Source of the DNA: Odiellus spinosus
Taxonomy: Eukaryota; Arthropoda; Arachnida; Opiliones; Phalangiidae
Length of the DNA: 64,000 bases
Reading direction: 5' to 3'
NCBI GenBank assembly: GCA_963920705.1
Contig: OY987225.1
Coordinates: forward strand, 18,307,492 to 18,371,491
A program made the position numbers and the translations under genes. The notes below the pieces were generated by a model. The model saw only the letters and a list, made by a program, of their open reading frames with translations, did no database searches and was not told the origin of the DNA. Shown here in pieces: positions 712 through 43,777 of the stretch. Numbering within the stretch: the first letter of the stretch is position 1; every line of letters starts with the position of its first letter.

Positions 712-3700
712 GGTCAAATTAAAGCATTTTGAAAAGTTCAAGGACATGCAAGAAGCAGTATCTGGTAAGAATAATAATTTAGATACAAATATTTGAACTT
801 TTTTGTACATTACGAATTGGACATTTCCTTAACGGGAAGGTGAAGAAGAAAATTGAGATTTTTATGTTGATTCTGCTATGAAAAGTAAGACCTGTTTTGC
901 GTAGTAAAACATCTCTCTGAATTGTGAATAAATTTGGAAACATTGATTTTTGCCAGTCAGTTAAAAGTAGAACCTCTGACTAATCGAAAGATTCCCCAGT
1001 TTTGGCTTTGTAAAATCTGTGGCACATTCTTTGAATCATGCAAAATTTTGTTCTTGATTATTGTTTTAATACGCACAAGAGTCTTATTTTTAATAGAATC
1101 TCTTGATTTTTACCATTCCCTTTAAGGGATCATTAAGTTGAGTAATGAGACAATTTTAATCAATTTGGAATGTGAAGATGTGTACAAACTTTCAGGCAAA
1201 CTCGCTATTGGTTTCTAATCATTAAGTTATGATTTGATAACGCTTAACTTTATGGTTTTAGAAAACATATTATTATCCATGGTGTTGAGTAAATAAATTT
1301 ATTTTTCCAAAGATTCTTATGGAAATTTCTTTTAAAAATTACAAGCATGTTAAATTTTTCCCCTTATAGTAACTATTGTTGACATATCAATATGTATAAT
1401 TCACTATCTGTAAGACTATATGTCTAGCTGTCAGGGCCGCTCAAGCTTACAGGCAATGTTAGAAAAATGAGAAAAGCTGATACACAATGTTAAACTTCTT
1501 TTGGAAAAATTGATTGATGCAAACTCCACTTGAGTATAGAAACTCGATTTTTTACTACAAATGCAAACTCAAAGCGCATGAGTTTATATTTCATTTATTT
1601 AATGTGAGACTCAAATCACACACTTCATATCAAACATCAATTAAGTTTGAGAAATCCTAATTTAAAGTCTTGAATTTTTTTTTTTTTTTTTTTTTGAATG
1701 ATGATGATTTACGCCTTAGAAACATCAAATGGTGTATAGTACAGTTCATACACAAAAAAATTTTAAGTGTGCATGAATCTCTGCCTGTTTAGTGAACGAA
1801 CCACTAAACAGCAATTTTGACGATTCATCGATAGTTATATAAATAATAGATCTCTGTTTTAAAACACTTAAATATAATTACCAGATATATTACGAACAAT
1901 GCAATTGTATTTAACAGCAGATGTGTCTCTTAGCTTAATTGTCCCATGCTCTAAGTTTGACTGCCCCAACTTCCTTATGTCATCTCCCATTCCAATTATG
2001 AATTTCCTCCATCCAAAGTAATGAATGACCCGGTTCCTCTCATTCTTCCTGAGCATTCGTCCCAAGCAGGTAATTAGCTAAGCCAGTCTCTCGTTACAAT
2101 TTTAAATCCTAAGCCTAGAAGCTTTATTGATAAAGAGCCACGTACTTGGAAACTGTTAGGGTTTAAAGAAATATAAACTGTTTTTAATATATTAAATAAA
2201 TTTCCGTGAGAATCTTTCAAAAAAAAATTATTTGCATTTTTTTATGCTGCAGGGTTTGGTATTTTAGGGTATCTATACTTAACACAGTCCGTTTAGCTAG
2301 TTGAATGAATAATTGCAAATGCAATTAAGTGATTGCGAGTAATTAGAGTCATTGAAAGATGAATGGCATGATTGATTAGAATAATTAAATATCATGGGTG
2401 AGTGAGAGTAGTAGAAAAGATATTCAGTTAGTAGCTCAATACAGTGTAACTGATGTGGCCTACGCGTTGCAATGCTTATCCTATAACTTCAGGGTAGGAT
2501 AGATCAAAAAACTGTTGCTTCTATGGAGGGATAAAATTGCCATTGATCGCTTTTGGCGTGTATTAAGATAAGGGGTATTAGTGGAAAGCCACTAAGCTAC
2601 AATCTGGTCAAAATGAAGATGGTAGATTTTTGGATAACTCCAGTCACCTTGTGGGGCACAAGATTTTTATCGAGTGGCAGCTCAATCAAATGAGAATAAA
2701 TATAAAAATGAAACAAATATACCCAGAGTACCTATTTGAGAGGATTTGAGAAAGTGGATGACAGAATGGAATCAGCAATTTATTGTGAGTGAAGAAGCAT
2801 TTACAGGCTCATTAAAACATTATTTGTACTTCTATTAAATTAAAAATATCTTGTTACTCATTTTAATAAACTAATAGCAACTATTTACTTGTATTAAATA
2901 CTCCGCACATTTTAATTCCATTTTAGCTTCTGCAGCGCTTATTGAAGGAAAGGTGACAAAAAGTTTCAGAAAAGTACTGAAAAAATTAATTGCTAAAGAG
3001 GCTCATGACTCTTTAGCAGTCGCTGATGCTAAACTTGGAAATGTTTTAAAAGTAGGTGTTGGCACCGTTTACGATGTTGGTCATTTCAGCTGAAATTATG
3101 AACAAAATTATTCTAAATTTGATTTGCTATGTTTTGGTTATTCATAGTGTAGCTACCTAAAACTAAGGAATATAAGCTGAGTACAGCGCTATAGTGTGAT
3201 GTTCGCATCATCTTCACAAAGAGAAAACACTATATATTTGCAGTTTTTTCTCTCAGTCACAAATCATACATTCACTTTGAATGCGCAAAATCAACAGCAG
3301 CATGTCTTCTCAAAGACGCAAAGGAGAAAGGCACCACATTTTTCCTCTTTTAGTTCGTACGTAACATACAAAGCCCTCTTCGAAGTCTCCCTTACCAAAA
3401 ATAGTTGGTCTTAAGAGATCTTGGGGAAGTCTTATGTAGTCTTAAGAGGTCTTGGAGAAGTCTTCATTGTGTCAAGAAGTCTTGTGGAAGTCCCAAGACT
3501 TTTGTAGTGTTCTTGAGGACCTCTTCAGATCGGACTATCTTTTTTCGGTAAGGGCTAGAGAACATGTGGGCTCCTCATTGTTTGGTAGCGTTGCTATAGG
3601 AACTTTACTGTCTTGCTATGCAAGCCATTCCTAGTGAAAACCAAAGTGTACGCACTGTCACGTTCTGTGCCAGTTCTCTTAGACTAGTTTCCCAGTATAG

Positions 3701-4787
3701 CTTTTGAAAAAACTGTCCACTGGCTGTTCGGCTTAGAGTTGTATGTGTGGGGAAATTATTTAACCTAAACAATAACTACAATAGAGCTACACTATGAATA
3801 TCTTTTATTTTTTATTATTTTAAAAACGAAATTGAATTCTTTAGGAAAAATTGGGTGTAAGTTGCGTTTCAAATTCTTCAATTCACGAACTAATGAGATG
3901 CATTCGAAGTCAAATGGAAAACCTAATCTCCAGTCTACCCAAAAAAGAAATGACTGCCATGGCTTTAGGTCTTGCTCACGGTCTTTCTCGCTATAAGTTG
4001 AAATTCAGCCCGGACAAGATCGATACTATGATTATACAAGCTGTGTGTAAGTAACCATAGTGTTCTTATTAGTTCTTTTCAAAATTGAATTATTTCTTCA
4101 TTCATCAAACCAGACTTAAAAAAATTTGAATATTAATTTTTTATACCATGGGTAAACAAAAAAAAAAAATCAAAAAAATTAAGCATAGCCTTCAAAAAAA
4201 TGGTTAAGCCTCGCCTTAATGATGAAATAGTAATTGAGGTTAGTTTTTTTGGGGGTGCGTAACAGTAATTTAGGTAGGTAAGTTACTGGACCGTTAAACT
4301 TTAGTTTAGAAAATAGTAATACAAGTAATAGTGATACAAGAATGTACTGTGGCATTTATAAGGAGTCGGCAAGGGAGATATTGATACGTCAGAGGTTTAT
4401 CTCTCACCTCGGTGTCATCCCCCTTAGGCTTTAGTGAGGGAGTTACAGTATTCGACCTTACAAACACTCCCCCCAGCAAGGTGTTCCCATTTTGCTCTCT
4501 CCCTATAGCGGTGATTTTTCATAACAAACTCAATAGGTACATTTCCTGAATGTTTTACTTTTGCAAACATGTCTTTCGAAAGAGAATCAATAAAAAAATC
4601 ACTTCGTATTCCTCTTCATTCAAAATTGAATAAAAGGACTCGTTTTCAGTCTAGCCTGTTGATTGGATGCGAAATCTTCTGAACATGTTGAATAATTTTT
4701 AATGAATGAACTTCATATAAACAAAGATATTATAAGGCTGAATAGGTTCAACAAGTACTGAGAGAGAAATGGGGAGAGAAGTGAAGT

Positions 4788-4828
<41 letters not shown>

Positions 4829-7800
4829 TGAGAATGGGTGGTCGGATTACTCTGACCGTGCACCTCGACTAGAAGTCCATTGTGCATAAGTGAAGTAGTA
4901 GACGACATCTAATCTCCGAACAAAGTATATAATTTAGTGTATGCCTCGTTAAGGGGTAGATCTTGGGTAGTGTATCTTTTAAGGGGGGTGGTTAATGTGG
5001 TTTAGGTGAAATCTCAAATTCCAAGTTTTCTACCTTTGCCACCAACTCTTTAATTAACTGCAGCCAGTGATGTAATCAAAGTAACATGATATCTGATTGA
5101 TTCATTTGTTTTCGTCACTACCACTGAGGCATTTTTTATTAATTAATAAACTTTTATGTAAAAACTTACTCTGGTATTACCCTAATTGAGTTAATTTTTG
5201 CCTCAGCTTTATTGGATGATTTAGACAAAGAATTGAACAATTACATCATGAGATGTAAAGAATGGTACGGCTGGCATTTCCCAGAATTATCTAAATTAAT
5301 TCCGGACAACCATTTGTACATATCCGTCATCAAGCTGATGAAAATGAGAACCAGTGCCGCCGAATTAGATTTTTCTGATTTGTTACAACCTGACGATGAA
5401 GCCAAATTGAAAGAACTAGCAGAAATATCCATGGGAACTGAAATTTCCGATGATGATATGAATAATATTCTCTACTTGTGTACAGAGGTTAGTTTTTCAT
5501 TGTCTTTGACCTAGGCCATTAACACATAGACTTATCTCATTAATGAGAGAAAAAGAACGAAAAATGATGTTTTAAGTCTAGTGACAGATGTGACTAAAGC
5601 AATAGCTAACAAATCACATGCGTGTCTGACTTAAGGCAGTCTTGAGCCCAAAATTTTAGGTAGGACCATTAAAATTATAGGGATGAAATTATAACCCCTC
5701 TCCTAATGACAGGCAGCCCAGTGGTCCTATAATTCCCATAATATCCTGTGCTTTAAAACCTCTAATATATTATCCTGTATTTTATTGAAATATCTTATAA
5801 AGTGTTAGTTATGGGTTTATTTTTGTAAAATATTTATTATAAGGCATATTTCGCATCCAAAAATTTTGCCACCCCTTCAAGAACTTAAACTTTGCGGATA
5901 AGCAAACCTTACTAGCTTTGGACTATTTTGGCGGAAGCATCCTAAGAGGGCGAGATGATTTAAAAATGGTTTAGAACTGGAAAATAATATTATTTTTGAA
6001 AATACTTCTACTGAAATTTGCACTTAAATGAGGGCGAGATGGTTTAAAAATGGTTTAGAACCGGAAAATAATATTATTTATGAAAATACTTCTGAAATTT
6101 GCACTTAAATGTTTTAAAATATGCATAAAAAGACATCAAATCTCCGGTCTAACTGTAATTTACAGTTTATTATGAAAGTCTAGAAGCACCGGAAAAACTC
6201 AAGAAAATTGAGTTGCTGATGCAAATGAAATATTGCTTAAAACTGACTCCTGAACCAATTTTCTAAAGCATGCGCCATATCTCTCTTTCGTTTCAATGAC
6301 AAACTCTCATTGGCATCAGGAACAATTCTGAAACTTGTTCAAGCCTAGTAGTTTCAAAACTTTTGTAATTAACCACCAATTATAATGAAACCTTTGGAGA
6401 GTTAAAGGGTAAATGAGAACTGTTGTATCACTTTCTTGATTTTACGTTTTTCTGAATCTACGTTATTGAAAACCTAAGAAAAACATCAACTCTTATTTTT
6501 AAGCATCTCCTAAATATGATAGAAAAGGTTTTAAAGATCGGACTTCGTTGACTGCTAAAAAAAAAAATGCATGGAGTCCCTGTGTTTCAATATCCGAGAA
6601 AACCATCCGACCAATAGGTGCAGTTTAGACCTTGTGACCCCAGAGAAACCAGATATCATTTATGTAATGAAGCTAAATACCTTTGATACAGACCAAAACT
6701 GTTCCAAACGATGTTTTCCTTAAATAAAAATACATTAATTCACCAAAATAAATTTATTTTCAAATCACCGACTTCGGCGGTGCTCACTATATTGTAATAT
6801 AAACTATACTCTACACGAGCACACTGGATTTTGCGAGAGCTCCTATTGGTCAGATGTTTTTCTGGGAAATTGAAACACAGGGACTCCATGCTTTTTTTCT
6901 AGCAGACAACGAAGTCCGATCTTTAAAACCTTTTCTATCTTATTAAGGATATGCTTAAAAATAAGAGTTGATATTTTTCTTAGGTTTCGATAACATAGAT
7001 TCAGAAAAACGTAAAATCAATAAAGTGACATCAGTTTTCATTTACCCTTTAATAATTTATTTCTATTTTAAGTCTAAATCTATTAAAAATAACTTGTTTC
7101 CAGAGTATAGAATCCCTTTTAAAGCTATATATATAGAACAGAGATTGTCAAATAGGCTGCTTTCTAGCCTTTGGCTGGCAGACACGAGGGTGACGTTTTT
7201 GTTTGTTGCGTAGTTTAGCTTGTTGGCTGCTAGTTGTTTCTCTCTCAATAATATTGATGATCCTCAAAATTGCCAATGATTATTAGAAGTTCTTACTGAA
7301 TTTTTGATGAATTTCTTCTTTCGTCACTACCTCTGAGGCTTTCATTATAATTTATAAAGACTAACGAAGATTTAAATTCAAACTTATTTCTAGTATAATT
7401 TTTTTCCTTTTTTTCTTAGATTCTTGAAATGAGCAAATACCGCAATCAACTAAGCGAATATCTGAAAAATCGTATGATGGCTGTTGCGCCTAATCTTACC
7501 ATTTTAGTTGGGGAACTTGTTGGTGCTCGTCTCATTTCTCATGCGGGTAAAATATATATATTTTTAATTATACCTGAAGCAAATAGAAAATCAGTGTAAA
7601 TCTCGGGTTCTTACGGTGCAAAACTATACGGGGAATTCTTTAGGAGATCCAGTAGATCATAATCCTTTTCAGGGTGGTATTTAGGCCCAAAAATTTAGAC
7701 TAGATAGACACTTGTGAAAAAGTCACAGCTGCGCTCTCCGCATTGGAAGGATTACAACTGGTTTAAAATGTCCTATTTAAATGAGTTGAAATTTCACTAT

Positions 7801-10628
7801 TTGAATACGCCCTGTATTTTAGTATACATTTAATTCATGGCATTGAACTGCAATTGAGCCAATGATGGATAACAAAGTTTAAACTGAGTAAATGATGTAT
7901 AAATTCTGTTTCGTCACTACCTCTGAGGCTCAATTAGGGTATAAAGTATTTGAAATTTTAGCTATTGAAATGGTTTTGAGATTAATAAATACGCAGGTAG
8001 AGGACCTTATCAAAAAGAAACTTGCCCCATTTTCAGGATCACTCATAAATTTAGCTAAACATCCAGCATCGACGGTTCAAATACTTGGTGCTGAAAAAGC
8101 TCTCTTTAGAGCATTAAAAGCCAAGCATGACACTCCAAAGTACGGTTTAATTTACCACGCAGCTTTGGTTGGGCAATCTAGTGCCAAACTGAAAGGAAAA
8201 GTAAGCTATTAAACTTAATTTTATTTAAAGAGAAAAATGAAGTGATTTTTTTTTTTTATTGTAGCTTTGGCTTAGTAAAATTACAGCGACATGCGCACAA
8301 CATGTTTTTGGATATTTTCAGGGAATTATGCGTACAGCAACGCATGCCGCTAATATTTTATGAAGACATTGGTGGGGAGTCTTTTGATTTTTCAGAGGTT
8401 CTCTGTTTAAAATCGGAATCTTTCCAATTTTTTAACAAAGTTCAGAGACATCGATGTGTAATCCTTCTAACAAGTCTAATGTTTAACTGTATAATTGCTG
8501 AAAAATCACTTCATTTTCCTATTCACCATCTCTTTAAAAGTTGATCTGAAATTAATTTTTTGTTTCATTGTCCTTAATTAGGTGTCTAGAATGTTAGCAG
8601 CCAAATCTTCACTCGCGTGTCGCGTTGACGCTTTAGGTGAAGAAACAAATAATGAACTTGGAATAGAGCATAGAGCTAAACTAGAGAAAAGGATGAAGTT
8701 CCTAGAAGAAGGCGGAGTAAGTTCTTTTTTAACTGAGTATAATAAGGGTATTGTGTAGCTTTAATTGAAATTTTTGGTGAAAGCCAAGGAAATGATCAGA
8801 TTGATATATAGCACAAGCTCATGTACTTCAACTAGAGTCGAGTAATTCAAATTTTTCAATGGAGATTAGCTTTCCCCACTAAACCAAACTCATTTCGGGC
8901 CTCTTCTAATTGAACTTGTGTCATAGACGTGAATTTTCCTTTTTCTTATGTGATTTTATTCATTCCGTTATAAACTTATTGGTTTAATTAGTAAAACTCA
9001 ATGCACAAAACAAAAATTCCCTAAGGGTTTCATGACGTCAGTTTACTTTTCATTTTAGTCTTGCGCCTCACGCCACAGAAAACTCATTTAAAAACATTTA
9101 ATTTGGGATAAATTCTTAAAGAAACATTAAAGCTCAAGAAACTACAAAACGTGACTAGGCTACATGGCTATCACGTCTCTCTTTATGATTTTAGATGAAG
9201 AATCTTTAACGATCTTAGTAATGAATATAAGTTATTTCATCAAAAACATAACTAAACTTAAAAGTAAAACCGACGTCACGAAAGTTACGAAACCCTTGAA
9301 TTTTTTCAATTCCTGAAAAAGTTTGTTTGGCGCAAGTTCAAATGGACAAGGCCTAAAATAAGTAAGACACTCAAGTTACTTGTCTTTTTCAAGTTTCAAA
9401 TGGTCTGTAAAACTCCATAATATTTAATCGCTTAGATTATGAACTAGTGGTGAGGAGATTTCCTATGAAATATGGAAGGCTTTGCTAATTTTTAATGAAA
9501 ATTACATTTTCCCCTTAAGACTAAGATAGCTTGTAAAATTCCATATGATTTTTGGTCTCCCACGCTAATTTTCACTGAAGATTTTTTTCTGCTTAAGAGA
9601 TTAACTAGTCTGTAAAAATTTTAATGCATCCAACGACCAATTTTCAAGACTATACTCATTGCTCAATGAAGATTAAATTAATATCTTAAGGGGTGAAAAG
9701 GTAGTCTCTAAATGTCCATAGTATTTAAGCGTTTAGTTCTTGTTACTATGACACGTGTAAAGGTGATTAGACTTTTATCTGTGGCATTTTGAAGACTGTT
9801 AAATTTAAAAATACACGTTAGTAAATTAATACAAAATGAATGACATTGAAGTACTGGCTACGGTACACCAACTTCTTACATTAAGGACTTTATATATATT
9901 ATTTTTCAGTTTTAGCTTATTTAGTTAACGAACTATTTCCTTTGAAGAATTAACACGTTTTCTGTGGTTTATCTATTAATTAACTTATTCTGAATTTTCA
10001 GACTCGAAGAATTAGTGGAACAGGAAAGGCAAAAGCTAAATGGGAAAAATATGAATCTAAAAGGTGCGTGGAACAATTTTCAACCTTAATCAAAATTAGT
10101 TTTAACTTCAATGAAAATGTAATTTGGCAGTGAAGTATTTGAATACTCGGCTTCTGCCGATTCAACCCTACCGTCATCAAAGAAAAGGAAATTTGATGAA
10201 GAAGAAACGGAAGAAGTAGAGACTAAATCCAAGAAAGTTAAAGTGGAACCGAAAGAAGAGCCTGGAGAAGATGAACCGCAACCCAGTACATCTGAGAAAA
10301 AAAAGAAAAAGAAACGTAAACAGTCGGAATCTGTTGCTGAACCTGAACCACCGCAAGAGGAAGCTGGTGCTGCTGATGAATCTGGTAAGTCTTGTACCTT
10401 TATAGGCTTAAATAGGCCTAATAATTACAAAGCAATATTAAGCAAGAAATCAAATTTAACTTAATCGTAAAGTAGGCTTATAGAAGAACTATGAAGAGTT
10501 TATTTGGCTTATATGTTTAGAATGTGTTTCTACTACCTTTTCTTATTAATTTTTATTGGTTTCCCATAGTTGGTAGCGAAAAAAAGAAAAAGAAGAAGAA
10601 AAAAAAAGCTCCTGTTGAAAGTGATTAG
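712..10628 (+). CDS. NOP58: NOP58, box C/D snoRNP core protein (5' partial, 10 exons)
   Basis: Exons: 712-764, 2927-3051, 3845-4046, 5207-5487, 7420-7546, 8037-8200, 8582-8716, 10002-10063, 10131-10384, 10570-10628. All junctions are GT/AG and phase-compatible, giving 486 residues to the TAG at 10626-10628. The order follows vertebrate NOP58: the VKLKHFEKF start, a coiled-coil region with [16 protein letters not shown], then the Nop domain ([11 protein letters not shown]-like segment in exon 5, [11 protein letters not shown] and [12 protein letters not shown] in exon 6, MLAAK in exon 7), and a Lys-rich KKKKKK tail in the last two exons. NOP58 binds box C/D snoRNAs with NOP56, fibrillarin and 15.5K to guide rRNA 2'-O-methylation in the nucleolus. 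About 43 N-terminal residues are missing (human protein is about 529 aa). Introns 3, 4 and 5 each carry a C/D snoRNA. No internal stop or frameshift is seen, so the gene looks intact. Confidence 0.96.
765..2926 (+). other. NOP58 intron, no recognised element
   Basis: AT-rich intron with a poly-T tract near 1676-1695. I saw no C/D box pair near its 3' end, unlike introns 3-5, and no coding exon. Confidence 0.5.
3389..3554. repeat. Small inverted-repeat element in NOP58 intron 2
   Basis: The stretch starts CCCTTACCAAAAATAG and ends CTATCTTTTTTCGGTAAGGG, so the ends are imperfect inverted repeats. Inside are about three degenerate copies of a roughly 32-bp unit built on TCTTAAGAGGTCTTGG. No clear target duplication flanks it. 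It could be an old MITE; superfamily unknown. Confidence 0.4.
4779..4899 (-). mobile_element. Retroposed short sequence with poly(A) and 12-bp target duplication
   Basis: A 12-bp direct repeat, AAGTGAAGTAGT, occurs at 4779-4790 and 4888-4899. Between the copies lies a run of about 36 T and then about 60 bp of unique sequence. Read on the minus strand this is a short body ending in AATAAA followed by a long A tail, the hallmark of LINE-mediated retroposition of an RNA. The source RNA was not recognised. It lies in NOP58 intron 3, upstream of the first snoRNA. Confidence 0.65.
5063..5130 (+). ncRNA. Box C/D snoRNA, SNORD70-like, copy 1 (NOP58 intron 3)
   Basis: C box GTGATGT (5067-5073, last base off consensus), internal CTGA as D' (5093-5096) and D box CTGA (5124-5127). 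GCC before the C box pairs with GGC after the D box. The guide directly upstream of the D box, TTTTCGTCACTACC plus A, is complementary to the conserved 18S rRNA segment GGTAGTGACGAAAA. The fifth base upstream of the D box pairs with the A of GGTA, which corresponds to human 18S A512, the SNORD70 target. The D box ends 79 nt before the 3' splice site, the usual spacing for intronic C/D snoRNAs. Confidence 0.85.
5723..5850. repeat. Dispersed TCCTATA-rich repeat, copy 1
   Basis: A segment built on CCTATAAT/TATCCTGTATTT/ATTGAAATATC recurs in similar form at about 51990-52085 inside an SLC22 intron. Both are strand-biased and rich in the heptamer TCCTATA or its variants. Boundaries are approximate. 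It is probably a degenerate repeat; no terminal repeats were resolved. Confidence 0.4.
5946..6111. repeat. Tandem duplication of about 84 bp in NOP58 intron 4
   Basis: The unit starting GAGGGCGAGATGATTTAAAA at 5946 is repeated at 6030 with few substitutions and a small deletion. The second copy ends at 6111. Confidence 0.8.
6402..7052. mobile_element. TTAA-flanked MITE with ~220-bp inverted arms
   Basis: TTAA occurs at 6402-6405 and 7049-7052. The 643-bp body between starts AGGGTAAATGAGAACTG and ends with its inverted counterpart. Long imperfect inverted arms (about 6406-6630 and 6840-7048) surround a unique centre. TTAA targets are typical of the piggyBac and Kolobok superfamilies; no transposase is present. 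A related arm lies at about 49700-49855. It sits in NOP58 intron 4 just upstream of the second snoRNA. Confidence 0.75.
7249..7341 (+). ncRNA. Box C/D snoRNA, SNORD70-like, copy 2 (NOP58 intron 4)
   Basis: C box TTGATGA (7254-7260), D' CTGA (7296-7299), C' TTGATGA (7304-7310), D box CTGA (7333-7336): a complete C-D'-C'-D set. The guide TTTCGTCACTACCT (7319-7332) abuts the D box and is complementary to 18S AGGTAGTGACGAAA, again placing the fifth base on the A512 equivalent. The D box lies 83 nt before the exon 5 acceptor. The segment upstream of D' (TTAGAAGTTCTTA) could be a second guide; its target was not recognised. The terminal stem is weak. Confidence 0.88.
7852..7935 (+). ncRNA. Box C/D snoRNA, SNORD70-like, copy 3 (NOP58 intron 5)
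   Basis: A perfect 9-bp terminal stem (AATTGAGCC 7852-7860 with GGCTCAATT 7927-7935) closes C box ATGATGG (7862-7868), D' CTGA (7884-7887), C' ATGATGT (7892-7898) and D box CTGA (7923-7926). The guide TTTCGTCACTACCT (7909-7922) is identical to that of copy 2 and targets the same 18S site. The D' guide region AACAAAGTTTAAA differs from copy 2. The D box lies 110 nt upstream of the exon 6 acceptor. This is the best-formed of the three. Confidence 0.9.
8717..10001 (+). other. NOP58 intron, no recognised element
   Basis: AT-rich intron. I saw no C/D boxes, terminal inverted repeats or coding similarity. Confidence 0.5.
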
Positions 10629-10684
10629 AATTATATCACGCTTAACGAGCTTGTAAAAACTTAAATGAATTTAGAGTTTGAAAA

Positions 10685-10690
10685 AATAAA
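10685..10690 (+). terminator. NOP58 poly(A) signal
   Basis: AATAAA 57 bp after the NOP58 stop codon, in a short AT-rich 3' UTR. Confidence 0.75.
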
Positions 10691-10733
10691 ACATTTTTTA
10701 CATATAAAACTCATTTTTATAGCACACTTATAA

Positions 10734-13627: not shown

Positions 13628-16600
13628 TCAAGAAGGTTCCGTTCCAACATTGCTTAGACTAGAAACCACCGAAGGCGCCGCGCTATTTGCCGATGCAGTT
13701 AGGGCTGCCGTTGCCATAGTTGATAGATGTGACAACTCCTCAGAGTAGTAATGCGGCGTGTTAAGGTAATCTCTAAGAGATCTCGGTAACGGTAGAGAAT
13801 CAATCAAATCTCTTCGAACCGACTTTAGGATAACGAATCTAGAAATAAGACATTTTTAAGATTATTCCAAGCCGTAATTTCAAATCAATTTTTTGGTTTT
13901 TAAATATGAGATTTAATTTTTCAGGAACAGTTTATGTAAAATAAAGCAAAAAGCAAGTGTTTTCAGATTGGGAAGGACAGTTTCTCTGGCTGCAAAGTGC
14001 ACGATTCTGCCTATCTTACACTTTATGGAACATATTTTTAAATAATGGTCAAAAATTTATTTTTTATTAGTTTGCAACTAGCGTCAGTTTTGAACCTTTC
14101 AACTGAGTAAAAACCAGATCAAAAGGGGCTCCCCCTTTTTAAGCCTTTCCCTCAGTTTTGAACCTAGCCAAATTTAGATCCACTGTTTTACGCCTTTCCC
14201 TCTGTGATAACCAAGCCAATTGTGGCCCCTCAGATTTAAGAATTTCTTCTTTCCTTCAGTGATAACCAAATCGAATGAGGCGCCCCATATTTAAGCTTAC
14301 CCCTCAGTGATAACCAAATCCCCTAAAATCACCAATGCTACGAGAAATTTTTCTTCATAACTATCATTATCTGGATGGGCCAATAATTTCGTACCTGCAC
14401 ATGTGTTGTAAGGATTGCACTTGTTTAAATCTTGAGACAGGGTGTAAAAGTTGTACTCTCATTGGACCCAATACAGGTCGGCGATGCAGGAAGAATAGAT
14501 ATCTGCCACTTCTTGAATGCTCAACAGCGTTTTCAATGAAATCCACTATCGTGTTACTTCGAAATTTCTGTTGACATCCAAAGCTGAAGTTGCCTGAACG
14601 ATTAAATAAAAGATTTCAAACATTAAGAACAAATTTTCTATAAATTAGACAAAAAAGTTTGTAATAATTGACTTTGATGGTAGTCGATTTAAAATTAAAA
14701 ATTGTTAAAGATGGTAGGCTAAGGTTATGTTCCCTTTAAGGACGCATTACAAATGCTTTATGATGCACCCTCCCCTCACACCTGCATCACTAAGTTTTCC
14801 TCACCCACTAACAGTGTTATATATTTTTTGTTCGTCAAACCAAGGGTAAGCAGATTCTGTCTTGGCACTTGGCTGTTTGGAATCTGGGCCTGATTCCGTT
14901 TTAAGTTTTACTGACAATTGAATAGATGGCACTCACATAAATACTGCCACTTTGCAATTTGTTCTATGTCGAACCCTAAATCGACTCGACTAGTCAATGT
15001 TAGTGTTATTTAAAAGGTATATTATGACCCCTTGTGACTGTTTTCCTTGATATAGTTCAACGATCTCAAACTATATCTAGATTGGTATTTTCAGATCTGT
15101 ATTTTTTACAAATTATCCCTGAACATCTTTGAGCATTTAACTATTTCCCTTTCTTCAGACACATTTGGTACAAACCACTTTTACTAGTACACCAAATTGT
15201 AACAATTTCCAAACTTTTACCAGACCTTTTGTCATAATTTTCAAATATTGACAGACTTTTCTCTGACATTTGGCCATAATTTAAGTTCCCTGTTCTTTTG
15301 GTACAGTTTCAGGATTTGGCCTTACTGTCAGATAAGAATAAATTTGCTTCTTACCATGGTCGTGTTCAATGCGAACGTGTCTAACCCAACCATTCAGCTT
15401 AAAAGTAAGACTGAAAATGTAGTGTTCATCCGAGCTGTCTCGGACCACAAAAGCCCCATCTGGTTCATTAGAGAGCAGTTTTTCAGCCGTCTCGCCGCTG
15501 ATTGGACCCCAATACCAGCCACACTGAAATGAAGAAAATGAACCTTAAAACCTTCACACTCGCGTTAATTAAACGTAAAAGGGATCTTACATCTTTAACT
15601 TTCTCTATGCTAGCGGCATAATCCACGCTTCGCGTTCTGCTATGAGTGCTGATATAATTATCGGATAATGTGGAGAGAGCGCTTAAGGAACTTGAGTCAT
15701 CGTCATCCCTGACGCAAATGGTTGGTTCTTGAAGTAAACCATTTTCATCAACCGGTAGAGGCGGTAAAGCCCTATTGGTGAAAGGACTCGTATTGGGACT
15801 AGGCTTCTCCGCATCATCACCTTCAAAAGCTTCCGACGCAGAAGGTTCCTTGCGCAAGGTTTCAGCAGCTTCAGAGCTGCTGGGTTCAGAAGATGCGGAA
15901 GCTTCCATTTTGTTGTTCGCATAATGTTTTTTTTTCGGAGAGTTCCGTTTCAAACCGAACAAACTCGAAATCGCGACCTTCACGTTAATGGGAAAGCTGT
16001 GTCGGTGGTAGTGCACATCGCCATTACCACCATTTTCTTTACCTTTACTCGTAGCGCATTTCTTTGACTTTCGTGGTCGGAAATAAACCCGAAAAAATTG
16101 GCGACACGGCGACTTTTTCAGCTCATCTTCAGGACTAGACTGTTCCAAATCTTTGCCTTCGTCGCTAAAACGTGATGATGAATTTGCTTTAACTTCTTCT
16201 AGCGTCATGTGAATAGGTTCTGAGTTTAGCTCTTCGGAATCACCCCAACTTTTTATGCATCTTGCGTGTCCATTCGGTTGGCTCGTTATGGGTTTATCTT
16301 CGCATAGCTTGGAAGTAGATTGACTAGAGTTTGCGATACGATGGAAAGCTACGTTTCCTTCATCAGTAGGGTCTCGCGGGCTGCTTGTCATTCTACTTGC
16401 CAGAACATCATTCATACTTTTAGCCCAACTACGAGAAGCGTTGTGACTGAGATTCTCACCAAATTGAGAGTTCACTATGACGGATCCGTTTCTCGAAAAA
16501 ACTGGATCATCAGAGCTGGGGGAAGATATTTCTAAAGACTTGCTACACAACAAAGGCCTGTCTCTCGCTTCAGTTGTTCCATTTTCGCTACGCTCTTTGA

Positions 16601-17552
16601 AAGCTGAGGAATGTTCAGGTTGGACTTCTTGTAAAACATTTTGTCTTCCAGAAGAGACTTCAACGCTTGATTCCACCTCGACGTTATTAGGGCCAATGTT
16701 AATCGTCCCGCAACTGGGTCTAAGCGCTCTTGGTTTAACAACGGTAGTGAAATGAGCCGACGGATCACTTTGAGATCGCAATGATTTGTAAGAAACTGCA
16801 GCACTGAGACTAAGATTAGCGTCGGCTTCACTTTGAGTTTTTTCTCTACGAATTCGAGCCATTCTCGGCGGTCGTATGGGAGGTGCGGCTGATTTCAAAA
16901 CCTCACAATCGCTTAAAGCCACCGACATGGTTGATGGAACGTAGTAAGAGCTTGATGAGCAATCGTCGCTTAAATAGTCTTCAGTAGTGGTAGATATATT
17001 TTCCTCTTTCAAAGTGCTGGGAGAAGTTTCAATGTTATTAGTCGAGAGGTTTGGATTTAGGGTGGTTTCAATGGAGATACTATTATCATTATGTAGGAAA
17101 ATGGACGGGATTTCGCAATTACAATTTTGAAGTTCTATCTCGGAGTGGTTAGATTTACTATTTACACTACGGTCCGTTGCACATTTTAATTTGTCACACT
17201 GCGATGAGCGGCAGTTTTCATTGTTAGGCAAACTACACGGACTACTAGGCCTAGATGGTTCATCCATTTCCAGGCCGATTGGTCCGATATCACCGTTAAA
17301 CCACTCAGGATTTTGAAGGACTTTTTGGTCGCTCGTAAACTTATCAACGGCGTTGTTTTTTCCCTCACTTTCAGAGAGGTTGTTGTAACCTTTGATGTTA
17401 CTTACAGTCATGAAACTGAACTGGACATCGCGTGGTTTTTCTTCTGCCATAGCAATTTTATCACTTTTTGCCAGCGCAGTTATGTAAGGCTCGATTGAGT
17501 GATAAGGCCATTTACCACGTACTAACCTATCAACGCAACATTTACATCTCAT
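13628..17552 (-). CDS. SOCS6/7: SOCS6/SOCS7-type SH2 and SOCS-box adaptor (4 exons)
   Basis: Exons in transcript order: 17552-15591, 15523-15355, 14593-14395, 13838-13628; GT/AG junctions with matching phases give 846 residues. Residues 1-654 (one exon) are Ser/Pro-rich and mostly disordered, with short motifs such as APPIRPPR and RALPPLP that could bind SH3 domains. The SH2 domain starts CGWYWGP at residue 655, with phosphotyrosine-binding Arg about 682 in FVVRDSSD. The SOCS box (about 772-802) begins LQHMCRFVI and has SLPLPRSLRDYL; a 44-residue tail follows. Family members recruit elongin B/C and cullin-5 to ubiquitinate phosphotyrosine receptors and adaptors. The WYWGP and RDSSD signatures fit SOCS6/7 rather than CIS or SOCS1-3. 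The start at 17552 is the first ATG; Met35 is an alternative. Confidence 0.93.
14090..14330. repeat. Degenerate ~50-65 bp tandem repeat in SOCS intron
   Basis: Four to five diverged copies of a unit containing GTGATAACCAAATC, a C-rich patch, ATTTAAG and CTTTCCCTCAG lie between SOCS exons 3 and 4. Confidence 0.6.
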
Positions 17553-18231
17553 TTTTCACATCCAATTTTCCGAAAGAGATAACAACGATTATTCTACCCG
17601 AGTCTAATGCTATTTGTGCTGAATAAAACATTACTCCGAAACCACTTTCAAGAGCCAACATTAACAACAACGGTCTCTTCAAATCAGTTCGTACAATGTA
17701 ATCTTATAAGCGAGATATCCAAAGATATCAAAACATCGTTTCGTACAGCAAGGAGTTAAATTTTATTATGATAATCGAAAATGAACTAGTGAAATAGATG
17801 TTCTTAGTTACACTATTCGACAAAGATTTGGGCTCCTTAGTTCTTTAGTCTTTACTCTTTAGGGCTTAGTCAGGTTTATCGTAAACCCTTGGCCATGATG
17901 CACAAATTAGGCAGCCAAGTCCAACTTGCCAAGGAACTAGGAAGGGCTTTTGGGTCCTCTTTCATTTCGATTTCATCAAAAATTCTGCCAAATCGATGTT
18001 ACATTAGATTAAATTCTTAAGAAGAATAATTACTACTATTAAGTAATTAATTTAACTAAAAAAATTTAAATAGACAAATTAAATCATATTAATGAAAAAT
18101 ATGTCCAAAGACTATATATAGCATTTTCTTCTTGGATAAGTTGGATTGTTAAGGTGGTAAACAGAGTAGTACATAAACTACTATTCGAAGCTACGGTCCA
18201 TTTACTTTTTTTCTTTCCGGTGCCTAACAAG
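17553..18231 (-). other. SOCS upstream region
   Basis: Presumed 5' UTR or promoter of the minus-strand SOCS gene. No TATA box at a convincing distance was seen and no repeat was recognised before the MITE at 18232. Confidence 0.35.
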
Positions 18232-21352: not shown

Positions 21353-21750
21353 ACGGGCAAAGAGTGCTTGAATTCTAAGACAATTACATTAATTTTTGAT
21401 TATATTTATGTTTTTTCACTAATGGTGTCTTTCCTTAAATATTCAATGTTTTTAAATTCAGAGGTTAATCGTAATAAAAAAACTACTACTGGTGTACTTT
21501 CTAATGTTGTTTCGCTATGATATGAATTATACAGAATACTTGATCGCATTAAACAAAATATAACAGCATATACACTGCAAAAACCCGACGTTCTATAACA
21601 CCGAACTTATCCACTCAATCTCGTTAGCAGACGATATTGCAGACAGACATCGCAAGAGAAAAACAAGTTGATTAATAACTATGGGGTCGATGGTGGCGAC
21701 CCCATTTCGGACGTTTTTCTCAGGGCTCTTCTTTCGTTGGGGCGACTATA

Positions 21751-23085
21751 GCACATCTGATAAAAAACGAATGTTCCAAAGCCAAGCATCTAGCGAACTT
21801 GATGAAGTAAGTTGGGCAAGAATGTCGCGAATTTATGACTGCGTAAGCGGTTACATCGAAAAACGGAGATCGAATCAGGCGTTGAAGAGTAACCACGTCA
21901 CACACATCACGGCGCACCGACAATGGCAAGAGGTGAAGGTCAAGTAGCCGCTTATGGTAGGGAATATGACCCGGCGAATTCGTTTTCGGAGACTTCGTGT
22001 AAAATCTGGTAAAATTGCGCTGAATTCGCTCCAAAGAGGTAACATCTTTCTTCAGATACGGGTTCCAAACCGGAGACGCATACTCGAGAATTGGTAAACA
22101 CATTGACCGATAGAGAGTCAGGGACGCCTTAGTATGTCCTGTAGTCCGGCGAATCAACCCGCATAAGCGTCTGGCGCGATTACCAGCGTAAATGACGTGA
22201 GACGCCCACTTTAAGTCGCTTGAAATAATGACTCCAAGAATCTTCATGGACGAAATACGGGTTAAGGGCTCACCGTCGATATGGTAATGTACTTCGTCCA
22301 GGTTCCGCCGTCTCGTTATAACCATGAAATTGTATTTCTTTATGTTAAGTGAAATGCGATTCGTGTTTCCCCACGCAAAAACTCGATTTATGTTATCTTG
22401 TAGAGTCAAGCTATCCGCCACAGAGCGAATCGCGATAGATATGTAGCTATCATCCGCGTATTGATATAACGAACAGTTAGATGTTAACTCGGATGGCAGG
22501 TCAGACACGAACAGATTGAAAAGCTACGGTCCCAAAATTGAGCCCTGGGGAACACACGGGCAAATAAGAACTGAATTCTCCACGGTAGATAACGCGTTGG
22601 AAGCGGTCACTCAAAAAGTCACGAAGCCAGCGCAAAACGTGTCCATGAACTCCAGCTTTCTCTAGTTTAAAAACCAACCGCTTGTGGCAAACCGAATCAA
22701 ACGCCTTTGACCAGTCAAACGAGACAACGTGAATATCAGGTGGAGTACGCTCGTCGAGAATAGATGACCATTCGTTGAAGGACTTCAAAAGCTGGTGAGT
22801 ACAAGATCTTCCTTCTCTGAACCCAAATTGCGAAATGGGTATGACTGAGTTATTGTCCAGAAAACGATTCAACTTCTCATATATGATCGATTCAAGTAAC
22901 TTGCCAATAATGGAGGTCAGCGAAATGGGGCGGTAATTCTCGAGATTGTTTCGCCTACCAGAGCCCTTAAAAACCGGGATGACATTCGCGAGTTTCCAGC
23001 CCGAATCGAGTGAAGACGTCAATAACGAAAAGTTGAAAAGTTTTACCAACGGGTCTATTATTGCCGCAGCCATTAGTTTCAGCAA
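21751..23085 (-). pseudogene. LINE reverse transcriptase, two frames
   Basis: The minus-strand segments 23085-22501 and 22508-21751 together carry RT motifs: ENYRPISLTS, FREGRSC, DWSKAFDSVCHKRL, then YADDSYI with the catalytic YADD, and the thumb region. The change of frame near 22505 falls where a GxxLGPxLF-type motif should be, so a small indel has disrupted it. The C-terminal end continues at 19076-18958 beyond the inserted transposon. Confidence 0.88.
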
Positions 23086-23093
23086 CCTCGGAG

Positions 23094-25043
23094 TTATACT
23101 ATCGGGTCTGTCGAGGTAACCGAATCCATGGTGAAAGCCTTCCCTGACGATCTCAATAAAGGTAAAGTCAGATCCGGATCAGGTGTCGTGAAGCTCCCAT
23201 AGAAGAAATTACCGAACGCGGATGCTATAGCTGACGGGCAAGACAACGGCCCACCAAGAGTCTCAAACGAGGATGGCGGAGGTATCTGGGACTTGGAACG
23301 GACGAAGCTCCAAAAGCGTTTGGGTTGCGTAGCCAGAGTATCATGTAAACTCGAGACGAAGTGGTCATAAGCGGTACGAGTCTTCCGCCGTAAGGCATTA
23401 CTAAAGTTCTTATATTTCATCCAATCAGTATCTTTAGAGCTTTTTTTGGCCTTGTTGAAGAGAGCACCTTTGACATGGCTTCCGTGTACGAGGTCACCCG
23501 TAATCCAGGGCGAACGCTTTTTACCGCGAAAAGGGATAGAAGGAACGTTATCTTTTACACAGCCCCAAAAGATGTCTAGCCAAAGTTCCCAAGTCTTGTC
23601 AATGTTACCGTTATCGAAAGCAATATCCCACGGAGCGTACCGTAAGGTATCGAGAAAATCAGCTTGAGATATGTCTTTGTAATTAAGTATAGTACGTTGT
23701 ACTCGCTGAACGAAAGGGCGTGGTAGGTTGAGAACGCCAGCAACCGCAGAATGATCCAAACCTGGTAGGTTGTCTATAACTTCAACCTTAGACAAGAAAC
23801 ACTGGTCATTTATGAACACCAAGTCCAAAAAATTTGGCCCACGAGTAGGAGCGGTGACCATCTGTTGGAGCCCGAGACCAAAAACGGTGTCGCAAAAGAG
23901 TTGCTCCACAGCAGATTTCGGATTAGGGTTTGACCAGTCAATGTGCGCGTTAAAATCTCCCATCAATAGGAAAACGTCGTGAGGTGGAAGATTTTCGTGT
24001 AAATTTCCCAGAACGTCACTTAGTTGTAACATGTAATCAAGAGAGGATTTTGGTGGGCGATAGACACAACCAACCACGACGGTACGGTTTTTACAAGTAA
24101 ATTTCGAAAAAACAATTTCAACATGAACTCCGTCCTCGGTGGCCAGTAAGTCGTCAGGAATCTCAACCGGAAGAGGTTGGAGCGAATCATGTATGGCTAA
24201 AAGGACACCCCCTGCACGAGTCGGACGGTCGTTGCGAAACGTAACGTAGTCCGGCGGAAACAGTTCTGAGTCGAGAACCGAAGGGTCAAGCCATGTTTCC
24301 GTAAGTCCGAAAACGTCAAAATTGTCCGAGTTAAAAACACACAAGTCCATGATTCTATTTCGCACGCTACGAACATTGGAAAGAGCAAATGTCACACTTC
24401 TTGAGCGTTTCGCTGATCTTAGTGTTGTATGTGTAACATTCACAATAGTCTCATCTGGTAGCGAAGAATTGTTGAGAGCGAAAAAAGAATCGCTGAAAGC
24501 CGGCAAGGAGCACGTTGGCTCATTTGAAGCGCTATAACGGTGGTATTCATCTCTTTTCATGCTGAGGCATTTTGTATGAAACCACTTCTGGCATAAAGGG
24601 CCTTCGCAAAAAATTCCCATCTGGTTTGTCCTTACCGGTCTACCGCAATGTCCGCAAGGCCAAGTAACGTTAAGAGCAGGTCCAGGGTTAACTTCAACAT
24701 CCCCGCAGGAAGCAAGGCCATTAAAGCGTACGGCGATCAAAGTAGAGGAATCCAAATCCTTGTCAAAGACAACAGTGGAAGGTATTGGTCTAAAACGTCT
24801 GCGAGAGGAAAGGAGATCCACATATTGTGCCGGTGAGAATTCCGAATCGGGAGAGTAGTAGTTCGCGACGTTGCAATCATGTAAACCGGAACTAGGGAAC
24901 GCTATATCATCGATGATGGTAAAAGACGCGCAGATAAGAGCCAAAAACGAGAAAAGCCCAATAAATTGAAATGGAGAACTACGCCCAGTACTGGAATTTG
25001 GCGCCACTAAGCCCGCAACAAAGTTACCAGGCTGCATTTCCAA
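23094..25043 (-). CDS. LINE N-terminal ORF: hydrophobic leader, 2A-like motif, PHD finger, APE endonuclease
   Basis: A 649-codon open frame. Residues 25-45 are hydrophobic (signal or membrane-like). GDVEVNPGP at 114-122 (24678-24704) matches the 2A ribosome-skipping consensus D-V/I-E-x-N-P-G-P. A Cys/His PHD-type finger follows (WPCGHCGRPV... CQKWFHTKC, about 128-160). The APE-type endonuclease shows LTETWLD, MGDFNAHIDW and LPGLDHSAV. The frame ends at TDPIV and the RT resumes in another frame near 23085, so one indel separates the two. The start at 25043 is the first ATG; an earlier start is not excluded. Confidence 0.85.
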   Translation of the reverse strand: MEMQPGNFVAGLVAPNSSTGRSSPFQFIGLFSFLALICASFTIIDDIAFPSSGLHDCNVANYYSPDSEFSPAQYVDLLSSRRRFRPIPSTVVFDKDLDSSTLIAVRFNGLASCGDVEVNPGPALNVTWPCGHCGRPVRTNQMGIFCEGPLCQKWFHTKCLSMKRDEYHRYSASNEPTCSLPAFSDSFFALNNSSLPDETIVNVTHTTLRSAKRSRSVTFALSNVRSVRNRIMDLCVFNSDNFDVFGLTETWLDPSVLDSELFPPDYVTFRNDRPTRAGGVLLAIHDSLQPLPVEIPDDLLATEDGVHVEIVFSKFTCKNRTVVVGCVYRPPKSSLDYMLQLSDVLGNLHENLPPHDVFLLMGDFNAHIDWSNPNPKSAVEQLFCDTVFGLGLQQMVTAPTRGPNFLDLVFINDQCFLSKVEVIDNLPGLDHSAVAGVLNLPRPFVQRVQRTILNYKDISQADFLDTLRYAPWDIAFDNGNIDKTWELWLDIFWGCVKDNVPSIPFRGKKRSPWITGDLVHGSHVKGALFNKAKKSSKDTDWMKYKNFSNALRRKTRTAYDHFVSSLHDTLATQPKRFWSFVRSKSQIPPPSSFETLGGPLSCPSAIASAFGNFFYGSFTTPDPDLTLPLLRSSGKAFTMDSVTSTDPIV

Positions 25044-25374
25044 AAAACCAAACCACTCAGCTAAATTTAGATAAAATTATACAAGAAAATTAACGCTAAC
25101 CCTAAAATTTTGCAAAAATAAAAGCTAAGCCCAATAAGTAGTTTGAAATTGAACTTCAAAAATAGCGCGAGAAAAATTACATGCGACCACGCGCCATGAG
25201 ATTCTAAAATAATTTTGACACCCTCAAGTAATCTTGGTTCTTGGAGGATATTGCAAGTAATAATGGCAGATCTGAAGAGAGTGGACCAAATAACTGCAAG
25301 GTTGGGGAGGGTCCGGAGGGAAAGGCCTCTGATCAGTCAGATCATGAGACCTAGGAGGATGAAGGGGGACCTCT

Positions 25375-26848: not shown

Positions 26849-27250
26849 TTAAATAATAATTTGTCCACCAATGATTCCGGCGTGAGCGATAGGGATTCCA
26901 GCGGCGATTGGTACGGCGACACGATGGGCAATGTTGTTGATTTGAGCTTGAGCAGCGGCGACGCGTCCCAAGTAGGCGTCACGGTTTCCTTGAGCGATTC
27001 CAATAGCTCCGTTCAAGTCAGTGACTGTGATACCGTTGGGGCTGGCGACAGCTACTCGGTTGGCGACGTTAACGGCGGCGGCGTGAGCGGCGGAGACGCG
27101 TCCCAAATAGGCGTCGCGTTGGCCTTGAGCGATACCAATGGCACCAGTCAGGTCCGTTGAACCGATGGCAATCGGAGCCGCGGCCAAGCCGAGAGTAGTG
27201 ACTACTCCGGCGCTAGCGTAGGCGGCAAGACCGAGAAAGGTAATAACGAC
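26849..27250 (-). CDS. Secreted Ala-rich repeat protein, cuticle-like (last exon)
   Basis: The coding exon starts after a TTTACAG acceptor (exon begins at 27250) and opens in phase 0 with VVITFLGLAAYASAG, a typical signal-peptide core whose Met must lie in an unlocated upstream exon. The mature part has two tandem units containing TDLTGAIGIAQGQRDAYLGR and TDLNGAIGIAQGNRDAYLGR, each followed by an Ala/Asn-rich segment with N(V/I)A(N/H)RVAV. It ends in a Gly/Ile/Ala-rich stretch. About 133 residues are seen. Small size, a signal split by an early intron, and Ala/Val/Ile repeats resemble arthropod cuticle proteins, but I do not recognise a named Pfam cuticle family. GC content is clearly higher than the surroundings, supporting a functional gene. 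Confidence 0.75.
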   Translation of the reverse strand, partial: VVITFLGLAAYASAGVVTTLGLAAAPIAIGSTDLTGAIGIAQGQRDAYLGRVSAAHAAAVNVANRVAVASPNGITVTDLNGAIGIAQGNRDAYLGRVAAAQAQINNIAHRVAVPIAAGIPIAHAGIIGGQIII

Positions 27251-28667
27251 CTGTAAATAGGAAAAGAAACACTAGTTATTATATAACAAGAGAAAGCGCC
27301 AAACAATTCAGAAACAGTGGGTATCGAATTGAACCCGAAAAAACGAATAGGATTTTTGGATTCAGCAACTGTCTTGAACTAATCGGACAATAGATGCAAG
27401 CAACCTTACGATTTCTCTCTATTATATTTGCCTGAGCAACAACTTTGTTTTGAACCTCATCTTGCAACGCCCCATCCTTCATTATCTATCCTTGTTTTCA
27501 TCATTCATGAGTTTAGTAAAATAAAAAACCTGAATTCAACAAATGTGGACCAAAGGAAATTCAAATTTAGGTGAAATTTTGTTGAATTCGGGTTATTTCA
27601 CTAGGCGTGCTGGTTAAAATCTAAATTGTCATCGCGGGACACTGACTTTTTATGGACTTAACGAACTTGTTCAATTCCGGATATTCATGAACGCAAAGTA
27701 TCATTAGGTTGCAAGGCTTTGCACTAATTTATAATTGTGAGTCCAAGGTTATAATATTTTATTTCAAAAGGTGTGTTATAGTAAAACATCAACTAGACAA
27801 CTACCACACCCTGTACTTTTATATCGCGATGAAATGAACAAGGTCATTTAAAAGGTTTTATAAAAGGAGATAATTGCTCAAATTATTTTCGATTATCTGA
27901 AATAAAAATTATATTGGGCGTTTCATTGGCGAATATAATTAAATCAAGTGCTTTACGTAATGTAATAAGCCTATTTAAAGAAAGAAGAAAATTTCAAATT
28001 TGAAAGACCTTGGAAGATTAGCAGTTCTGGTTTGTACCGCTTCTGTCAAGATTTACAACAAATTATACGATTGGGAGTGAAAATAGCCACTTCATCATAA
28101 TTAGCTTAACTCACTAGTATCAAAAGGGGATAGAAAGTATCCCTTGGACCCTTTTTGCTAGTATAGCGGGGTATAATGTTCTTTAGAGTAAAAAATTTCG
28201 TATACAACTGGTTTTGCTTTTTTAAAGTTTTCGCTAAGACGGGCTGTGAAGCCCATTAATATTTTTACAAATATTAAGATCTAGAAAGCACAGAAGGTAC
28301 ACTGGGAATTCTTAAAAGGTCGCGGGGTGGCAGTGTTCAAACTCGAAATTGTATGAGTGGTTTGAAACCCCTTTGAAACGTTATTTAGTGGCGTCAATCA
28401 TTAGTGACATTATGACGACATTTATTCCGTAACTCGCCGTAATCTCAAATTATAACGGCAAAACCCCTTTAAAGGCCCTATCTGCTCTGAAACTGGCCCC
28501 TTTAAAATGCTCTTCCTTTACTCACGCAGCCTAGCTTTGACTGTTCAATTTATTTTGTACAACGTCGTCTGCTAAGCTAGAAAAGAAGGCGACTTTAAAG
28601 GGGATTTGAAAATCACAGATAGTCCCTTTAAGAAACCTATTAACCTTTAGGTTTATTATTTCATTAT
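27251..28667. other. Upstream region of cuticle-like gene
   Basis: This should contain the small first exon (Met plus a few codons) and the promoter. Several minus-strand ATGs exist but none has a convincing donor, so I do not assign it. Confidence 0.4.
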
Positions 28668-29524: not shown

Positions 29525-30130
29525 CCGTTTTTTTTTTTTTTTTTTTTTTTTTTTTCACCATTCATAAAAGAAACTAGAAGATTGAAGGGTGACCACAACA
29601 AAATCCCAAAATATTATATTGATTTAAAGTAAAATATAAGAAAATATAGGAGAATTACTCCTGAAATTAAAGGAAAATATAGGAAAATTACTTTTGAAAT
29701 TGTAGGAAAATATAGGAGAATTACTTTTGAAATTGTAGGAAAATATAGGAGAATTTCTTTTGATATAATTGTTGGAAAATATAGGAGAGTTGCTTTTCAT
29801 GAAATTATAGGAAAATATAGGAGAGTTGCTTGTCATGAAATTGTAGGAAAATATAGGAGAATTGCTCCCGACATTAAAGGAAAATATAGAAGAATTGCGC
29901 CTGAAATTAAAGGAAAATATATTAGAATTACTTCTGAAATTGTAGGATAATATAGTAGAATTACTCCTTAAATTAAAGGAAAATATAGAAGAATTATTTC
30001 TGAAATTAAAGGATAATATAGAAGAATTACTTCTGAAATTAAAGGAAAATATAGAAGAATTACTTCTGAAATTAAAGGAAAATATAGAAGAATTACTTCT
30101 GAAATTAAAGGAAAATATAGGTTTCTTAAA
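29525..30130. repeat. 33-bp minisatellite preceded by poly-T
   Basis: After a run of about 26 T near 29529-29555, the array from about 29630 to 30125 repeats GGAAAATATAGAAGAATTAC plus TTCTGAAATTAAA, about 33 bp, some 15 times with substitutions and a few longer units. Because the period is divisible by three, one minus-strand frame (29624-30148) stays open for 174 codons as an 11-residue repeat of the SFNFRSNSSIF type. I do not consider it a gene. The left flank AGGGTGACCACAA at 29588 also ends a repeat at about 54052, so the array may lie inside a hAT-like element. Confidence 0.85.
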
Positions 30131-42250: not shown

Positions 42251-43777
42251 TTTTTTTTTTGCTCTTTTATCGGGAAAGTCTCTGTCGAGCAACTTCTGGT
42301 TTGACTTCAATTATTAGCCGTTCAATTATCAAATGAAATAACAATGAATACAGAAGTTAATAATTATATCAAGAAGTGTACTACTTCATTGAATTTTCAA
42401 CTTTCACCATGTATTCCATCAAATTTCTTGAGCAGACGAAAGCACTTTTTGCATTGACCAATGAGAGAGAGGAAATGTTGAAAATAGTTCTTTAAGATCA
42501 CGTGGGGCGCCCGTCATACTCGCGCGTCACAGTCTCACAGATGCCATAGTAAACAAGTAAAATGGCGCCCGCGCGTCGCCCGAGACTGAAGGTTTTACGA
42601 TTACCGGATATAAACAATTATATTTTGTAATCCTACATAAATAATCGAATTTTAGTCGCAAATTACATTTTAACCTTTCTCAGTTTCACATTATAAGTTT
42701 TAAATTCAATTTAATACCACGTATTTGTTAGTCCAAAGTCTTTAAGCTCGAATTGGTCTAAGCCTTGGTTAGTTCAGTTGGTGGAAACTTGGATATTAAA
42801 CTATCGCTCTAGACTCCGACGCCGCCCATTACGGCCCGGCTCCTGGCCCGGCGCTACGTTCAACAATATTTTTGGCGCGGCCGCGGTATGGAAAAATCTC
42901 GGCGAGCCGCAGCCGAAACATGGTCATGCCGCTGCCGGGTTTTTTTTTTTTTTTTTTTTCACGGCGTCTGAGTCTATATCGCTCGCAACTTGATCCATTA
43001 ACGGTTACTTAAATAAACCGAGCTCAATTTTAAATTGCGGCTCACCTTCTGTCTCTGCCAAAACAACAATATACAGTGTGATCTTTATTTAAAACCTTCA
43101 GTAACAAAACAAATTCAGCGTGACAACTGTGATTTTATGTTTAACGCATCGACTCAAACAAATGCGGTAATTATTAAAAATATAATTGACACTAATGATT
43201 CATCTACGGATTTTATTTTTGCAAAAATAATCTACTTAATTAAATTTATCGAAAATATTATGCCTATGCCTAGTTTTGATTTGACATCCTCCATAATCTC
43301 CATAAAACAAGTTTTAGAGGAACTGGTTTTTTGGCGCAGTGCCACTCTTTCTCTATGTACCAAGTGAAGCGGCCGTCCAAATCACGTGGGCTTCAAAACC
43401 GCGTTACATTAATATTCGCCTCCGCGCCTAGGGGGGGAGAGCAATGAAAATTTGATGGAGCGGGAAAATTCAAAGCAATACACTTCTTGTTATAATTATT
43501 AATTTCTGATGAATACTGATCATTGATATGTGAAAGAACTTAGTTGTAAAATGAAACAAGATGGTTGGTATCACCACGTAGTTACGCGACGTGACGACTT
43601 GTTTTCTCGGGCATAGTTAAGTTGTTATTTAAAACCGCGGCCAAAGTTACAAGTTGGGCATCACCCACCCGTATACCCACAAAGACTGGTCACTGTTAAA
43701 CCTCCGCGTGAACTAGTACACTCAGGGAGGTAAAAATTCTTTAGTTTCCACTTAACCTTCCCTGTATTGACGAAATC
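42251..43777. other. Region between satellite and copia element
   Basis: Contains a GC-rich block at 42770-42940 ending in about 20 T, whose start resembles a tRNA A box (TAGTTCAGTTGGTGG); it might be a decayed SINE. An open frame at 43035-43367 (110 codons) shows no recognisable domain and I do not call it a gene. Confidence 0.35.

Follow-up and report, generated by a model that had tools for sequence, protein, structure and literature searches.

The NOP58 host gene and its introns

Our analysis of the 64-kb window, i.e. the whole stretch of Odiellus spinosus DNA that was analysed, revealed a gene for the C/D snoRNP core protein NOP58, and this gene carries three SNORD70-like box C/D elements (copies 1 to 3) in three consecutive introns (table 1). 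When joined across the three host introns, all of which are GT..AG introns, the exons stay in one frame and encode NOP58, and the joined exons match the Nop domain of Pfam (PF01798) with an E value of 1.6e-70. Among the best 120 of 7994 protein matches, identities ranged from 62 to 75% over 79-100% of the query; the matches with a name were NOP58/nop5 and the remainder unnamed or hypothetical proteins with a Nop domain, and scorpion, mites, ticks, molluscs, fishes and others were among the sources of NOP58 matches in this set. All three copies lie inside NOP58 introns, as had been noted in a first-pass annotation of this DNA, and are encoded on the sense strand of the gene. This location is usual for SNORD70 in vertebrates and is not strictly defining for the family.

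Table 1. Positions of the NOP58 gene, its three host introns and the SNORD70 copies within the window.
Feature	Position	Strand	Details
NOP58 host gene	2928..10628	+	exon translations, protein matches, Pfam Nop; start and stop approximate, exons identified only from about 2928; exon ends approximate outside the three host introns
NOP58 intron with copy 1	4047..5206	+	GTAAGT...CAG; copy 1 end to 3' splice site 76 nt
NOP58 intron with copy 2	5488..7419	+	GTTAGT...TAG; copy 2 end to 3' splice site 80 nt
NOP58 intron with copy 3	7547..8036	+	GTAAAA...CAG; copy 3 end to 3' splice site 101 nt
SNORD70 copy 1	5063..5130	+	box core with 3-bp inner terminal stem GCC/GGC
Copy 1 boxes	C 5067-5073; D' 5093-5096; C' about 5097-5103; guide 5110-5122; D 5124-5127	+	C GTGATGT; C' weak
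SNORD70 copy 2	7272..7339	+	3-bp inner stem
Copy 2 boxes	C 7276-7282; D' 7296-7299; C' 7304-7310; guide 7319-7331; D 7333-7336	+	C ATGATTA; C' TTGATGA
SNORD70 copy 3	7852..7935	+	9-bp terminal stem 7852-7860/7927-7935
Copy 3 boxes	C 7862-7868; D' 7884-7887; C' 7892-7898; guide 7909-7921; D 7923-7926	+	C ATGATGG; C' ATGATGT

The intron that hosts copy 2 additionally contains an inverted repeat (6402-7052) whose two arms measure 220 and 214 bp (6402-6621 and 6839-7052) at 90% identity and which looks like a small non-autonomous transposon, and an 84-bp unit duplicated in tandem (5946-6111). Elsewhere in the window we observed a tandem array of about 10 copies of a 195-bp unit (40287-42251) and a 33-bp tandem repeat of about 14 copies (29640-30121), in which one putatively coding minus-strand frame is open for 178 codons and repeats an FSFNFRSNSSI-like motif. 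Judged by eye from their translations, two long open frames resemble a non-LTR retrotransposon reverse transcriptase (21723-25076, minus strand) and a Copia-like polyprotein (44695-48539, plus strand). Two more minus-strand frames gave no Pfam match at E 0.001, namely one of 690 codons (15486-17555) and one of 140 codons (26852-27271) with a repeated GAIGIAQG.RDAYLGRV motif; the latter might, as a guess, encode a secreted or cuticle-type protein.

Box structure of the three copies

The three copies have in common TTTCGTCACTACC, followed by one A or T and the D box CTGA. The first-pass annotation had located CTGA at 5124, 7333 and 7923, and these positions are exact. It had also described CGTCACTACC as directly preceding CTGA, which needs correction since one base intervenes (an A in copy 1 and a T in the other two copies), and the string without this spacer gives 0 matches even when two mismatches are allowed. 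The 64-kb window contains exactly three instances of CGTCACTACCNCTGA, all on the plus strand (at 5113, 7322 and 7912), and the copy count of three refers to this window. With up to three mismatches there are 9 matches in the window against 1.76 expected, and 9 was reached in 0 of 100 shuffles.

In copy 3, boxes C and D are joined by the perfect 9-bp stem that had been annotated before, i.e. by the terminal stem that characterizes box C/D snoRNAs. Copies 1 and 2 have an exact D box and only 3 bp of inner stem each, and the C box of copy 2 deviates from RTGATGA at the second G. For copy 1 an outer stem of 8 bp is possible (5050-5057/5139-5146), in a fold that is no better than those of shuffled sequences. 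Complete C'/D' pairs had been claimed for two copies and can indeed be read in copies 2 and 3, while in copy 1 a D' box is present and C' is poor. Folding gives no clear support for the copies: energies are unremarkable for copy 1 (z -0.10) and copy 3 (z -0.89), and for copy 2 (z -2.37, with 7 of 200 shuffles as good) the minimum-energy fold pairs through box D. A script that looked through eight NOP58 introns for C/D pairs joined by at least 4 stem pairs returned none, which is uninformative because the three known copies likewise escaped its C-box pattern and stem limit.

Assignment to SNORD70

The proposed SNORD70 identity was borne out by a covariance-model search of Rfam over 8.2 kb (2500-10700, E up to 5), in which the SNORD70 family (RF00575, gathering score 50) matched all three copies over its full length. 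Copy 3 (7849-7938) scored 52.0 bits (E 3.4e-6), copy 1 (5054-5139) 38.3 bits (E 0.0034) and copy 2 (7266-7348) 34.7 bits (E 0.021), so that the gathering score was reached in one copy out of three. That copies 1 and 2 remain under the curated threshold counts against reading all three as SNORD70. Altogether the region gave 15 Rfam matches, comprising the three to SNORD70, 11 to other C/D families over the same three places and one to Alpha_RBS. The other C/D families, among them snoR17, snoR21, snoZ101 and SNORD11B, overlap the three copies as weak matches, each scoring under its own gathering threshold and lower than SNORD70 there, and were rejected; in the printed alignment snoR17 also shares the GUCACUACC-CUGAGGCA stretch. 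The Alpha_RBS match was likewise discarded, being under its gathering score and not a snoRNA.

Predicted 18S target of the box D guide

As target we used a stand-in for the O. spinosus 18S, namely contig L001 (PIVK01000085.1), the one match in a scan of genome contigs, whose record title is that of a Rhodospirillales MAG. Of its 5283 nt, 937 match eukaryotic SSU rRNA, and the 18S part begins at 4347. The guides of copies 1 to 3 each form a perfect Watson-Crick duplex of 14 bp with this fragment, in which the snoRNA strand is GGTAGTGACGAAAA for copy 1 and AGGTAGTGACGAAA for copies 2 and 3. None of 300 shuffled guides per copy equalled this duplex, and the next best strict duplex at any other CTGA site on either strand of the window was 10 bp long. 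Because of the one-base spacer before CTGA, the fifth nucleotide upstream of box D is placed opposite an 18S A, and this is the same A in all three copies. The earlier assignment of the D+5 position to the equivalent of human A512 therefore held for every copy on the stand-in fragment, and the A512 equivalent as predicted target of all copies is supported. Viral contigs gave no match when scanned for an 18S segment, for a 28S segment or for the snoRNA.

For the numbering of this site we take HBII-234 to be SNORD70. The equivalence to human A512 rests on a published mapping, the accessible part of which groups G509, A512 and C517 as positions whose modifying guides have overlapping sites, and names snoRD11, snoRD56 and snoRD70 (PMC5612246). 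A table in the accessible part of a chicken study lists A445 as the 18S site of U16 and A473 as that of HBII-234 (PMC2653536); with the human U16 site taken as A484 (snoRD16 region, PMC5612246), the offset is 39 and A473 therefore corresponds to position 512. Our searches on Drosophila returned no passage on the A512-equivalent site.

Divergence of the copies and placement in the introns

It had been suggested that one guide was kept while the remaining sequence, including the D' guides, diverged, and the pairwise comparisons agree with this. The guide is identical at 13/13 positions in all three pairs of copies and the eight positions that follow it at 7/8, 7/8 and 8/8, against 18/33, 21/36 and 22/36 (about 55-61%) between C box and guide. 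In BLAST comparisons among the three host introns, each pair yielded a single match with E below 1e-4; it measures 56-73 nt, lies over the snoRNA and, between copies 1 and 2, extends about 20 nt beyond the snoRNA 3' end, while all remaining matches were at most 27 nt long with E of at least 0.07. The duplications are therefore either old or copied little flanking sequence. Distances of 76-101 nt, as measured to the 3' splice site, fit where intronic C/D snoRNAs usually lie according to the available part of PMC8162545. Computed post hoc and singly, the chance of a random placement this near the splice site is 0.07, 0.04 and 0.25 for copies 1, 2 and 3, and the distance of copy 3 taken alone is unremarkable.

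These data bear on the view that copy 3 only, or perhaps copy 1 as well, is a working snoRNA, and that the remaining duplicates, be it copy 2 alone or copies 1 and 2 together, are in decay and retained the guide by chance. The two Rfam scores below 50, the ATGATTA C box of copy 2 and the short inner stems of both copies would fit such decay. However, neutral decay is not expected to leave the guide and the positions next to it nearly untouched in bodies of such low identity; moreover, C' of copy 2 matches the consensus, and copies 1 and 2 are the ones that end 76-80 nt from the 3' splice site. We regard decay of one or two copies as unlikely.

D' guides and possible second targets

It is also conceivable that the copies were retained since their D' guides gained differing second targets, which would make them subfunctionalised double guides. 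The D' regions do differ among the copies, two of which have complete C'/D' pairs, and there are precedents: the accessible section 13 of PMC2653536 describes two H/ACA snoRNAs whose sequence variation might give new guiding functions, and a Drosophila preprint, in the portion available, reports closely similar snoRNA isoforms that are predicted to differ in target (PMC13228274). However, a duplex scan of the D' guides over the whole of L001 with shuffled-guide controls argues against this, as 94% and 90% of shuffled guides did as well as the best duplexes of copies 1 and 2, respectively, which were thus not beyond chance. The best duplex of copy 3, with 11 pairs including 2 G-U, was equalled by 7.7% of shuffles, but it lies at 1822 of the L001 reverse complement and hence outside the 18S part. 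For each copy the three top D' matches all fall in stretches of L001 without an Rfam match. Alignment of the D' guides to 18S thus gave no support for a second target within the 937 nt of surrogate sequence, about half of an 18S, and we consider retention through new second targets improbable. That the gene carries three divergent copies of one guide because of unusual selection in this lineage, be it on the dosage of the modification or on a splicing-coupled feedback on NOP58, and that at least one D' region gained a lineage-specific second target, is very improbable.

The first-pass annotation had left the choice between redundant dosage and newly acquired second targets. Redundancy, with the guide under selection, stands as the best reading, and the part concerning new D' targets found no support in the surrogate 18S. 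We are highly confident that the elements are three paralogous SNORD70 box C/D genes which arose by duplication within NOP58, each most likely guiding methylation of the A512 equivalent and redundant with respect to the guide. Intragenic duplication inside NOP58 would have produced the three copies, each of which would most likely be spliced out with its intron and then trimmed. The trimmed copies would assemble with fibrillarin, NOP56, NOP58 and 15.5K and would direct 2'-O-methylation of the 18S A through the 14-bp duplex at box D. The rest of their sequence would drift.

Comparison with known SNORD70 systems

The chicken offers the closest parallel, as described in the accessible part of PMC2653536: GGgCD13, the homolog of HBII-234 with target 18S-A-473, is present as 2 isoforms in introns 3 and 6 of NOP5/58, and the same gene hosts HBII-95/snoRD11B twice, in introns 8 and 9. 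Section 13 of that source attributes almost all chicken snoRNA paralogues to intragenic duplication and notes that many vary extensively with their guide regions kept. Snord70 and RF00575 annotations also appear beside Nop58, presumably that of mouse judging from the gene spelling, in the available case study of a software paper (PMC4682413). The O. spinosus copies thus resemble vertebrate SNORD70/HBII-234, as far as these sources describe it, in guide, box arrangement, predicted 18S target, NOP58 host and presence of more than one intronic copy, and since chicken has two, multiple copies in NOP58 are unsurprising. They differ from the vertebrate snoRNAs in that three copies occupy consecutive introns of an invertebrate gene, in that the D' regions differ and in that two copies fall below the Rfam threshold. 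If the copies had different D' targets they would offer an attractive natural series in which to follow how snoRNAs diverge; nothing here shows such targets. Among the titles and abstract openings listed in a literature search, which mostly did not extend to subscription papers, none described an invertebrate NOP58 with three copies. The three-copy case is an ordinary and slightly expanded instance of a known process, the new detail being a third SNORD70 copy in NOP58, in an invertebrate. This extends the linkage of SNORD70 with NOP58 to an invertebrate and is a small addition to snoRNA annotation.
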